Shown: positions 29,307-32,689 of the stretch, in pieces
Position numbering within the stretch: position 1 is the first letter of the stretch
Layout of the letters: every line of letters starts with the position of its first letter
NCBI RefSeq assembly: GCF_002024505.1
Contig: NZ_CP019402.1
Location: 3,844,001 to 3,908,000 of the forward strand
Source of the DNA: Plantibacter flavus
Lineage (GTDB): Bacteria; Actinomycetota; Actinomycetes; Actinomycetales; Microbacteriaceae
Length of the DNA stretch: 64,000 nucleotides
Reading direction: 5' to 3'
Notes under the pieces: generated by a model
The model's database searches: none
Seen by the model: the letters and a program-made list of their open reading frames with translations, nothing else
Told to the model about the DNA's origin: nothing
Made by a program: the position numbers and the translations under genes

Positions 29307-30218
29307 ATGACCGACGACGACGTCACCATGACGAACGAACCCTCGCCGCTGCTCGCCGAGGGAGCCGAACTCGAGCACCTGTACACGGGCGCGATCTGGA
29401 GCGAGGGGCCCGCATGGATCGCGGAGACCGGCCGCGTGCGCTGGAGCGACATCCCGAACGACCGCATCCTCGAGTTCGACACCGCGACCGGTGAGACGGC
29501 CGTGTTCCGTGACGGCGCCGAGTACACGAACGGCCGCACGATCGACCGCGAGGGCCGGGTCGTGCAGTGCAGTCACGGGCGGCGCGCGGTCGAGATCGAG
29601 GGGCCCGACGGCCCGATCACGCTCGTCGACCGCTGGGCCGGCGGCCGCTTCAACTCCCCGAACGACGTCGTCGTGCACGCCGACGGCTCGATCTGGTTCA
29701 CCGACCCGCCGTACGGCATCGATCCGAGCGGGGAGGAGGGCCACCCGGGCGAGCAGGAGTACGGCGGGTGCTACGTCTTCCGGTTCGAGCCGGACACCGG
29801 AGCGGTCGAGCCGGTCATCACGGCGATGCTGCACCCGAACGGACTGGCGTTCTCACCGGACGGGTCGATCCTGTACGTGTCGGACACGGGTGACGGCGCA
29901 CTCCGCATCGCCGCGTACGACGTCGCCGAGGACGGCGTCTCGGTCGTCTTCGGCGACACCCCGGGACGCACCTTCGCGAGCACCGCGGTCCCCGCATCCG
30001 ACGGCTTCCGGATCGATGTCGACGGCAACGTCTGGTCGTCGGCCGGCGACGGCGTCGAGGTCTTCGACCCCACCGGCGCGACCATCCTGCGCATCCCGGT
30101 CCCCGAACGCACGGCGAACGTCTGCTTCGGCGGCGAGGACGGCATGACGCTCTACATCACCGCGTCGAGTTCCCTGTACCGCATCCGCACGGCCACCCGG
30201 CAGTCGCCGCGGCCCTGA
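29307..30218 (+). CDS. SMP-30/gluconolactonase-family protein
   Basis: The 303-residue six-bladed beta-propeller is expected to hydrolyse sugar lactones. Metal-site residues can be matched: Glu33 (SEGPAW), Asn119 (NSPNDV), Asn in LHPNGLAFS and Asp in YVSDTGDG. Repeated G-x-I-W-F-T-D/S-D blades are present. TAGGCT lies 7 nt before ATG 29307. Its end lies 12 bp before the remnant of a LacI gene, so it may once have belonged to a LacI-controlled sugar-acid operon. Confidence 0.92.
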   Translation: MTDDDVTMTNEPSPLLAEGAELEHLYTGAIWSEGPAWIAETGRVRWSDIPNDRILEFDTATGETAVFRDGAEYTNGRTIDREGRVVQCSHGRRAVEIEGPDGPITLVDRWAGGRFNSPNDVVVHADGSIWFTDPPYGIDPSGEEGHPGEQEYGGCYVFRFEPDTGAVEPVITAMLHPNGLAFSPDGSILYVSDTGDGALRIAAYDVAEDGVSVVFGDTPGRTFASTAVPASDGFRIDVDGNVWSSAGDGVEVFDPTGATILRIPVPERTANVCFGGEDGMTLYITASSSLYRIRTATRQSPRP

Positions 30219-30230
30219 CGGTCGCGCCGC

Positions 30231-30474
30231 TCAGACGGAGGAGGCCCGGACGACGAGCTCGGGCTGGAAGACGAGGTGGCGCGCGGACAGCGGCGGGATC
30301 GGCGCACCCTCCGCGACGGCGAACTCGCCGAGGAGCAGCTCCACCGCGGCGACACCGAAGCCCTCGTGCGGCGCCCGCACCGAGGTGAGCGGGATGATCG
30401 ACGACTCCGCGAACTCGATGTCGTCGTAGCCGACGATCAGCGATGTCCTCAGGCACCGGGACGACCGTCAAGGA
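30231..30474 (-). pseudogene. Truncated LacI-family gene (C-terminal remnant)
   Basis: Reading leftward, 30438-30231 encodes the last 69 residues of a LacI sensor domain (from IVGYDDIEFAESS to ...PELVVRASSV) and ends in TGA. This block is 194/198 identical to the 3' end of the intact lacI at 31664; all four differences (30360, 30372, 30375, 30381) are at third codon positions and are silent. Upstream the match stops abruptly; VPVPEDIA (30439-30470) is LacI-like but in another frame and differs from the intact gene (VRVPDDLA). The remnant has no start, no DNA-binding domain and a frameshift at the junction. Confidence 0.8.
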
Positions 30475-30545
30475 CGCGCTCGAGCCATCGATCCGATCGT
30501 CCACCTGGTATCTCGATATTTCGCCGCTCAGAAGCATACACATGT

Positions 30546-30574
30546 TTGATATAAAAGTTTTCTGCGTATACATA
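30546..30574 (+). promoter_or_regulatory. AT-rich promoter of the bacteriocin cassette
   Basis: TTGATA (30546-30551), a 17-bp spacer and TACATA (30569-30574, overlapping TATACA 30567-30572) form a promoter-like pair in the most AT-rich stretch of the window, 60 bp before the first cassette gene. Confidence 0.45.
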
Positions 30575-30633
30575 TTGCGCGCAAAAATGAGAAGTATTAG
30601 CTTCATGGGAAGTCGGTCGGAGGGATCAATCTC

Positions 30634-30828
30634 ATGCCATCTCATCTGCAACCGCGGTCGCGCAGGCCTCACAAAGCTTGGGGAGTCGGTCTCATCGCGG
30701 TCTCGGCGCCGATCATGTCCATGAGCCTGATTCTCCCGTCACCCGCAGCAGCGATCGGGTTCCTCTCGGTGCCATTGCTCTGCGTCGCTGGCGCGCTGCT
30801 CCTTGCGGCGTCCGCCTCAGAACGATGA
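30634..30828 (+). CDS. Small membrane peptide, possible immunity factor
   Basis: The 64-residue peptide has a basic N-terminus (about 1-14) and two hydrophobic segments (about 17-34 and 39-60), so it should be a two-helix inner-membrane protein. GGAGG lies 10 nt before ATG 30634. It has no recognised homologue. It sits 39 bp upstream of the bacteriocin precursor in the same direction and behind the cassette promoter, the usual place and size for a bacteriocin immunity protein; this role is inferred from context only. It could also take part in export. Confidence 0.55.
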   Translation: MPSHLQPRSRRPHKAWGVGLIAVSAPIMSMSLILPSPAAAIGFLSVPLLCVAGALLLAASASER

Positions 30829-30867
30829 AGAGTGCCACACAACGAAACGGAGAATGCAGTGGAGCTT

Positions 30868-31581
30868 ATGGGAGTATCACGATTTGTCGCGGCGCTGACG
30901 GCCGCTACCCTGTGCGCGGTCGTGATGACCGTTGCACCCGCACAAGCGCGCGCTGAGGACTCGACTACACCCACATCATCCGACGTCCTTCGAGTGGTCA
31001 CAGACGCGAGCGAGCTTTCGACGACCGACATCACCGGCTCGGAACGAGACCGCTTCCTCCGAGCAGCTTCACAACATCTCGAGGTTCAAGGGGGTGCGCA
31101 CGTCGACGTTGCTCGGGCTTCCGTCCTCAAAGTTGAAGAGTCGACTGTGGCCGCCAGATTCGATCTGGTTGGCGAAAACGTGGTGGCACCGTCTTCGCTG
31201 ACAGTGTTCTTGAACGACGGTGCTGAAGTCGTATCCACGGTGGAGATGCTGTTCCAGCCCGATGGTCGAGGTGGCGGAAGCATGAGCGTTTGGCAGGACT
31301 CCATCTTCACGTCGACACAGTCCGTGACCGCGTCTCAAGCCGCCGACGCTCTCTCGGGGACCGTATCGGTCAGCGGAAGTGGCGACTGGTGGGGCGAGTT
31401 GAGCTCTTGCTTGAGCCAGAGCGGCGTCCCCGTCTGGGCGGCCAGCCTCCTGGCTACCGCTTGCGCCGTGGCTTGCGCAGTCACGGTCGGCATCGGATGC
31501 GGCGTGTGCCTGGCCGCGCTGATCGGCACCTCTACAGGCATCACCGCAGCCTGCATCGACTACGCGAACAGCCACGCTTAG
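30868..31581 (+). CDS. Halocin C8-like bacteriocin precursor
   Basis: The 237-residue protein starts with a signal peptide (MGVSRFVAALTAATLCAVVM, cleavage likely at AQA or ARA near residue 30). A soluble central part follows (about 31-165). The last 65 residues are hydrophobic with six Cys spaced C-x17-C-x3-C-x7-C-x2-C-x15-C, containing VPVWAASLLATACAVACAV and GIGCGVCLAALIG. This layout is that of halocin C8-type precursors, where the Cys-rich C-terminus is the secreted peptide and the N-terminal part gives immunity. GTG 30859 is an alternative start. Family assignment rests on pattern recognition, not a search. Confidence 0.7.
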   Translation: MGVSRFVAALTAATLCAVVMTVAPAQARAEDSTTPTSSDVLRVVTDASELSTTDITGSERDRFLRAASQHLEVQGGAHVDVARASVLKVEESTVAARFDLVGENVVAPSSLTVFLNDGAEVVSTVEMLFQPDGRGGGSMSVWQDSIFTSTQSVTASQAADALSGTVSVSGSGDWWGELSSCLSQSGVPVWAASLLATACAVACAVTVGIGCGVCLAALIGTSTGITAACIDYANSHA

Positions 31582-31606
31582 CTCAGCGCCACGATAGTCG
31601 ATGAAC

Positions 31607-31641
31607 GAATCGGGCATCGCCTCCACGGCGATGCCCGATTC
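31607..31641 (+). terminator. Strong hairpin terminator after the bacteriocin gene
   Basis: GAATCGGGCATCGCC (31607-31621) and GGCGATGCCCGATTC (31627-31641) pair perfectly over 15 bp with a 5-nt loop, 26 bp after the stop. It also faces the end of the leftward lacI gene and could stop transcription both ways. Confidence 0.85.
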
Positions 31642-31663
31642 TCGCGCTTGTACGACAAGCGAA

Positions 31664-32689
31664 CTACTCGCGCGTTGAGGCCCGGACGACGAGCTCGGGC
31701 TGGAAGACGAGGTGGCGCGCGGACAGCGGCGGGATCGGCGCACCCTCCGCGACGGCGAACTCGCCGAGGAGCAGCTCCACCGCGGCGACACCGAACCCCT
31801 CGTGCGGTGCGCGCACGGAGGTGAGCGGGATGATCGACGACTCCGCGAACTCGATGTCGTCGTAGCCGACGATCGCGAGGTCGTCCGGGACGCGGACCCC
31901 GTGCTCGACGACGAGCGTCTGCATGATGCCGAGGGCGAGCAGGTCGTTCACCGCGAACACGGCGTCTGGACGCGCCTCGGGCGGGCGGCTGGCGATGGCC
32001 CGGCCGAGCTCGCGGCCCTCGGCGATCGTTCGCTCGGTGCCCGCGATCACCTCGAGGGTCGCCCCGGGCACGGCGGCCACGGCGGCGCTCGCCCCCTCGA
32101 ACCGGTCGGCGACCTGACGGATGCCGAGTGGACCACCGACGAAGGCGAGTCGCCGACGACCGGTCGCCAGCAGGTGCTCGGCCGCGAGGAACCCACCGCG
32201 CACGTCGTCGACGGACACCGAGGGCTGGTCCGGCGAGGAGGCCAGCTGCCCGACGAGGACCGAAGGGATGCCCCGCTGCCGGATGCTCGTCAGCCGCTCC
32301 TCCACCGACTCGTGCGACGCGACGAGCATGCCCTGCACCCGCTGCGCCTCGAACATGCCGAGGTAGGCGTCCTCGCGCTCACGGCTGCGGTTGGAGTTCG
32401 CGATGAAGACGGAGAGCCCGTCCTCGGCGGCGCGCTGTTCGACCCCCTCTGCGATCGTCGCGAAGAACGGGTTGCTGACGTCGGGCGCGATGTAGGCGAT
32501 GGTGCCGCTCCGGCCGAGACGCAGCTGCCAGGCGGCGTTGTTGCGGACGAACCCGAGCTGGTCGATGGCCCGCTGGATGCGCTCCTGCTTCTCGGGCGAG
32601 ACGCGGTCGGGGTGGTTGATGTAGTGGGAGACCGTGCCCATGGAGACGTCGGCGAGCGTCGCGACCTCGCGGATACCGACTCGTCCCAT
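31664..32689 (-). CDS. LacI-family repressor of the glycoside regulon
   Basis: The 341-residue protein has a LacI helix-turn-helix (IREVATLADVSMGTVSHYIN, about 6-25), hinge (NNAAWQLRLGRS) and a sugar-binding domain ending in PELVVRASTRE. It is third in a leftward series after the SDR and decarboxylase-like genes, 77 bp after the latter, and could be co-transcribed with them. TTGAAACG/TGTCAA-type operators next to the SDR, ABC transporter, Tm-1 and rhamnosidase genes are its likely targets. Its last 198 bp are duplicated beyond the bacteriocin cassette, so its 3' end has been through recombination; the C-terminus differs by three residues from the remnant. Confidence 0.9.
   Translation of the reverse strand: MGRVGIREVATLADVSMGTVSHYINHPDRVSPEKQERIQRAIDQLGFVRNNAAWQLRLGRSGTIAYIAPDVSNPFFATIAEGVEQRAAEDGLSVFIANSNRSREREDAYLGMFEAQRVQGMLVASHESVEERLTSIRQRGIPSVLVGQLASSPDQPSVSVDDVRGGFLAAEHLLATGRRRLAFVGGPLGIRQVADRFEGASAAVAAVPGATLEVIAGTERTIAEGRELGRAIASRPPEARPDAVFAVNDLLALGIMQTLVVEHGVRVPDDLAIVGYDDIEFAESSIIPLTSVRAPHEGFGVAAVELLLGEFAVAEGAPIPPLSARHLVFQPELVVRASTRE

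Follow-up and report, generated by a model that had tools for sequence, protein, structure and literature searches.

Halocin C8 is made as a precursor of 283 amino acids, ProC8, that is exported by the twin-arginine translocation (Tat) route and yields both the immunity peptide HalI and the 76-residue halocin, according to the sections of PMC11509114 available to us. Closticin 574 is described in the accessible part of PMC10888436 as a 309-residue signal-bearing protein that is cut to an 82-residue C-terminal bacteriocin after secretion. The excerpts of PMC8270828 present sublancin 168 as a glycopeptide that has a transporter and modifying enzymes of its own, and whose cassette of bacteriocin and immunity protein is carried on an SPbeta phage. 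Here we analyze a low-GC (guanine plus cytosine) insert at positions 30439–31676 of a 64,000-nucleotide window of the Plantibacter flavus chromosome (bases 3844001–3908000 of a one-contig, 4.21-Mb genome). The insert is probably a horizontally acquired two-gene bacteriocin system, in which a peptide is released from the C-terminus of a secreted precursor and a two-helix membrane protein provides immunity. An initial annotation had called it a halocin C8-like bacteriocin cassette; the bacteriocin part of that claim is supported by the architecture of the insert, its patchy occurrence, its foreign composition and its recurrent partner gene, while membership of the halocin C8 family is not borne out, the TIGR04449 model giving no match. 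The cassette and its coding features are as follows.

30439–31676, plus strand: inserted cassette, GC 60.4%, missing at the matching sites of same-genus genomes
30634–30828, plus strand: 64-residue protein with two transmembrane helices, candidate immunity protein (from its helices, its charge pattern and like reading frames beside homologous precursors)
30868–31581, plus strand: precursor of 237 residues (paralogue in the same genome; family in two phyla)
30868–30954, plus strand: putative signal peptide, residues 1–29, ending in ARA before ED (from the sequence, the structural model being of low confidence at residues 1–32; predicted cleavage site)
30955–31371, plus strand: predicted pro-domain of two helices, six strands and a short helix (AlphaFold2, with a predicted local distance difference test score, pLDDT, of 89–95 for blocks of residues 51–150)
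31381–31578, plus strand: hydrophobic core with six cysteines, residues 172–237, presumed mature peptide (cysteine columns kept in the family; four predicted helices)

Both open reading frames (ORFs) lie where the initial annotation had drawn them, and can be taken as genes because other genomes repeatedly show precursor homologues next to two-helix ORFs. Translation of the precursor might instead begin at either of two in-frame GTG codons, at 30832 and 30859. Its signal appears Sec-like by eye, with no twin-arginine in residues 1–30. AlphaFold2 modeling of the precursor with 44 sequences (mean pLDDT 76, predicted template modeling score 0.69) gave an alpha/beta pro-domain at pLDDT of about 90, a low-confidence linker at residues 166–170 and a four-helix core, with helices predicted at 174–184, 189–205, 209–221 and 225–236 (block pLDDT 68–83). 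A Streptomyces relative modeled with 27 sequences (mean pLDDT 69.7) has the same domain order, with low confidence at residues 174–183 and four core helices at block pLDDT 55–78. A signal peptide and a C-terminal core behind a linker are the layout expected of bacteriocins that are cut from a long precursor, and both are present as predictions.

By analogy with closticin 574 and halocin C8, we infer that the 237-residue precursor would be secreted by means of its Sec-type signal peptide while the alpha/beta pro-domain holds the C-terminal core inactive or soluble, until an extracellular protease cuts the linker ahead of GDWWG, releasing a peptide some 66 residues long. The mature peptide would comprise four hydrophobic helices with three disulfides and would harm the membranes of related bacteria, whereas the 64-residue two-helix membrane protein would shield the producer. 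What the analysis itself establishes is the insert, its pair of genes, the family to which they belong, the layout of predicted domains and the repeated pairing; export, processing, disulfide formation, killing and protection go beyond it.

The 64-residue protein has a basic N-terminal tail, two hydrophobic helices with a short loop between them, and a short C-terminal tail, with four lysines or arginines in the N-terminal tail, none in the loop and one in the C-terminal tail. These properties, together with the adjacent gene, are those of small-membrane-type immunity proteins. To score partners elsewhere, we looked for ORFs of 50–80 residues with two helices and positive tails, near the precursor and on the same strand; such a gene was found at 19 of 22 loci, namely 18 of 19 unfused bacterial loci and one of three archaeal loci. 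In twenty 20-kb control stretches from eight genomes of the order, only 3 of 272 genes fit this description. The enrichment (18/19 vs 3/272) has a Fisher p of 1e-24, a value that overstates independence because several of the loci are closely related (L002 and L003; L008 and L015). L007 and L021 were scored as partner hits though their precursors are broken or truncated. Outside the 22 tested loci stand the four fused precursors together with the relics L024, L027, L037 and L038; the partners of these relics fit the helix part of the rule. The sole bacterial locus that failed it, L016, is arranged in tandem with L034, and L034 does have a partner; at this one locus of genome G602, two different precursors precede one two-helix partner.

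The position of the partner varies (upstream, downstream or fused) while the linkage persists. In a single clade (support 99/99; L009, L017, L018 and L020), the precursor carries the two helices as an N-terminal fusion, and partner and precursor overlap by 4 bases in the SPbeta-like Bacillus phage Goe14, as they do at L002, L003, L008, L015, L019, L036 and L047. In Goe14 (L085:3992–4911), both genes of the pair are annotated as hypothetical proteins; Goe11 and Goe13 have the same precursor, the pair itself having been seen in Goe14.

The initial annotation had also allowed that the precursor might prove to be a conserved housekeeping membrane protein, and its distribution speaks otherwise: homologues occur in two of the seven genomes of the genus, including its own, and a search at the family level (expectation value E <= 0.01) matched 10 of 398 genomes, of which 6 were accepted. 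At the same threshold, the order-level search matched 18 of 396 genomes (12 accepted) and the phylum-level search 2 of 396 (one accepted, the window's own genome); in a Streptomyces-like genus, 3 of 246 genomes gave a match at E <= 0.001. Members were also found on one Streptomyces plasmid, two Bacillaceae plasmids and three SPbeta-like Bacillus phages, and a protein database search returned at least 47 proteins. Among the named homologues listed, which come from Streptomyces, Bacillus and Terribacillus, all are hypothetical or uncharacterized except for one jgi label. Profile comparison linked the window type to Bacillaceae members at 99.2% probability and to other members of the same order at 99.5%, and a 45-sequence tree places the window gene in a group with L002, P0002 and P0003 (100/98). 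The six core cysteine columns are the best-kept feature of the family, holding cysteine in 46–50 of 50 members, and conservation is higher in the core than in the pro-region (entropy 1.87 vs 2.68 bits).

The genome carries a second precursor, 42% identical to the one in the window, whose stop codon is lost; genome G006 has an intact copy. Silent sites differ by 0.055 between the paralogue cassettes L002 (G000) and L003 (G006), against 0.27 and 0.22 in the neighboring genes (p 4e-10 and 1e-5), and this low divergence points to recent spread or exchange between Plantibacter genomes.

The 1,238-bp insert is itself foreign in composition, at 60.4% GC vs 69.7% for the window, and the third-position GC of its two genes is 0.69–0.70 vs 0.93–0.94 for two neighboring genes. 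The matching site lacks the insert in three same-genus genomes, G005 (L050), G004 (L051) and G003 (L052), where the lacI end is single and where no precursor homologue was found at E <= 0.01. In the window, a direct repeat of the lacI 3′ end, 198 bp long and 98% identical between copies, brackets the insert, and the left flank of the unit is thus a copy of its right neighbor. The flanking and regulatory features are listed below.

30241–30438, no strand assigned: left repeat copy, a truncated antisense lacI 3′ end, 98% identical to 31677–31874; the relatives' single copy aligns to this stretch
31677–31874, no strand assigned: right repeat copy, within the intact lacI, 98% identical to 30241–30438
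31664–32689, minus strand: ORF that we take to encode a LacI-type regulator; the insert now supplies its last codons and its stop, and the copies of the relatives end differently
30546–30572, plus strand: possible promoter, TTGATA–15 nt–TATACA (suggested by the sequence)
31607–31641, plus strand: hairpin with a perfect 15-bp stem and a 5-nt loop, likely terminator (sequence and folding)

The ORF to the left of the insert, ending at 30218, is presumably sugar-lactonase-like. At its outer end the left lacI copy matches the right one exactly, and the four differences are bunched near the insert, where the left copy has some variants in common with G003 and not with nearer genomes. These shared variants suggest, without proof, that the cassette may have arrived on lacI DNA from another lineage. 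It could also be lost again by recombination across the 198-bp repeats. The ORF list of the insert held no recognizable recombinase.

The hairpin proposed downstream of the precursor is real, and the 91 nt around it fold at −46.6 kcal/mol (z −5.87); a likely terminator, it lacks a T tract and was unlisted by the terminator scan. As to the proposed AT-rich promoter, the AT-rich stretch is present (49% GC at 30500–30699), and the promoter scan found none, the 15-nt spacer of the TTGATA–TATACA element breaking its rule.

Several observations weigh against the cassette being a bacteriocin system. The window core, which has 66 residues with six cysteines and no lysine or arginine, carries a charge of −3 vs a family median of +1, unlike the classical cationic class II bacteriocins. 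No tested activity was found for any family member, and no transporter or maturation protease was recognized in the ORF list of the insert. A haloarchaeal precursor is activated by a secreted protease of another strain, as stated in the accessible portion of PMC12893001, which makes a cassette without a protease plausible. A closticin-like peptide of B. altitudinis made in vitro was inactive in the assays used, according to the part of PMC10888436 at hand, and such an architecture is therefore no guarantee of killing. The partner rule was set after most family loci had been seen, and its control was limited to the window's order; of the five loci met later, a partner is present at L041, L083 and L085 (phage Goe14) and no partner was visible at the other two, L081 and L082. 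Where the precursor is damaged (broken, truncated or recognizable in its C-terminal part alone), the partner is open at eight of eight loci (L007, L021, L024, L027, L037, L038, L041 and L083). The pattern is no more than supportive, because short genes survive longer by chance and because both genes look damaged in the fusion-like proteins of the B. velezensis group. These proteins (P0045, P0046, P0048 and P0050, about 160 residues) resemble deletion fusions of the precursor core and the two-helix partner.

Among the other explanations, common ancestry of the bacterial core and the archaeal halocin C8 domain, which would place the cassette in the halocin C8 superfamily proper and is compatible with the two-gene bacteriocin system, survives best and is possible, though it leans towards the doubtful. 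The initial annotation had staked its assignment on similarity to halocin C8, and for halocin C8 proper next to none was found at the sequence level. TIGR04449 (cut-off 24 bits) has no match in the window protein, which was searched against NCBIfam up to E 10, or elsewhere in its genome, whereas three archaeal halocin C8-like proteins used as a control score 45.7–49.1 bits. Alignment by hhalign to these three proteins reached 1.9% probability with the window-type profile, and 0.3% and 0.1% with the profiles of two other bacterial groups. With a 50-sequence profile it reached 22.5%, and in that alignment, which includes only three archaeal sequences, a C-x3-C-x7-C pattern falls into register with the archaeal proteins. 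TIGR04450 (Gpos_C8_like) is matched at E <= 1 by 7 of 50 family members (best 0.0026), the window protein not being among them. Three individual matches of relatives score 12.5–13.4 bits against a cut-off of 27 bits, over the C-terminal part of the model. Neither the window protein nor its genome matches TIGR04450, and no match at E <= 0.01 was seen in 296 genomes of the phylum. Some relatives match TIGR04450 and NF040679 co-linearly and below cut-off, which favors a shared origin.

PHROG 33667, a phage family without assigned function, is matched by the Goe14 member at 8e-177 and by a Streptomyces relative at 6e-6; its co-linear match to the window protein is weak (E 0.75). Given the missing TIGR04449 match, the sub-cut-off TIGR04450 scores, the weak archaeal profile and this PHROG value, we do not file the cassette as halocin C8-type, and leave a distant link open. 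To say that it acts in the manner of halocin C8 or closticin 574 is reasonable; that it is of the halocin C8 type is not shown.

A 68-residue two-helix ORF follows two of three intact archaeal halocin C8-like genes (L043:2304–2510 and L044:2299–2505, not L042), which also speaks for common ancestry, although the archaeal ORF passes the partner rule at only one of the three loci. Separately, the halocin gene at a locus of Halobacterium NRC-34001 is shortened, and an IS4-like transposase gene separates it from a two-helix ORF (L048:3968–4141). A bolder and rather speculative proposal is that one unrecognized bacteriocin superfamily spans Actinomycetota, Bacillota, SPbeta-like phages and, judging by the neighboring two-helix gene, haloarchaeal halocin C8-like loci. 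Immunity would in truth be conferred by an overlooked two-helix protein of 54–78 residues that moves freely upstream, downstream or into a fusion, and not by the N-terminal part of the precursor.

An unlikely alternative is a single-gene system as in halocin C8, in which immunity would come from the pro-domain once it is released from the precursor, and the two-helix protein would serve some other purpose, such as aiding export or processing. The reported derivation of HalI and halocin from one ProC8 chain (PMC11509114, in the text available) offers a precedent, the pro-domain is confidently folded in both AlphaFold2 models, and L081 and L082 have a precursor-like gene without a visible partner. 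The pro-domain is, however, less conserved than the core, and the two-helix ORF accompanies 18 of 19 unfused bacterial precursors and keeps its reading frame open beside broken precursors. Immunity from a separate protein is likelier than from the N-terminal part of the precursor, where the initial annotation had placed it.

It is improbable that the peptide is secreted for signaling or as a surface component without killing, with the membrane protein as its receptor or anchor. An anionic core would suit such a role, as would the ORF, presumably a LuxR-type response regulator, that adjoins the paralogue cassette; no regulator-like ORF was recognized in the window insert, and cassettes that are rare, mobile, phage-borne and decaying suit a weapon better than a conserved signal. 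Equally improbable is a decayed, non-functional remnant, which the lost stop codon of the paralogue, the broken precursors of several relatives and the truncated lacI copy beside the insert might suggest, but the window precursor and its partner are both open, with all six cysteines and a hairpin downstream.

If the two-gene bacteriocin system is borne out, it would add a compact bacteriocin family, the members of which carry no functional name in the databases used, and would supply a candidate immunity gene. The Plantibacter cassette, the Streptomyces plasmid copy and the B. subtilis phage would be ready test systems, and a common immunity principle of halocin-like peptides across domains would become testable. 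The literature searched, into which subscription papers scarcely entered, yielded no paper on the precursor family or linking the candidate immunity gene to it.

Set beside the described systems, the cassette resembles halocin C8 in its secreted precursor of similar size and its cysteine-rich, hydrophobic C-terminal peptide. It differs in its signal, which lacks a twin-arginine whereas ProC8 uses Tat (PMC11509114, as far as available), and in its candidate immunity factor, a separate protein where ProC8 contains its own. The likeness to TIGR04450, a putative immunity/bacteriocin fusion, is weak and runs through relatives, the window protein being unmatched. PHROG 33667, a cluster without function, names the phage branch rather than the system. 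SPbeta-type phages Goe11, Goe13 and Goe14 carry the window precursor family much as SPbeta carries sublancin 168, and the transporter and modifying enzymes of sublancin have no recognized counterpart in the window cassette. The likeness to closticin 574 is one of architecture: a signal peptide, a long pro-region and a C-terminal peptide. To our knowledge, closticin 574 lacks the six-cysteine pattern. The cassette appears to represent a kind of system that is already known, in which a bacteriocin is cleaved from the C-terminal end of a secreted protein; Pfam, NCBIfam, PHROGs and PADLOC assign no function to the form seen here.

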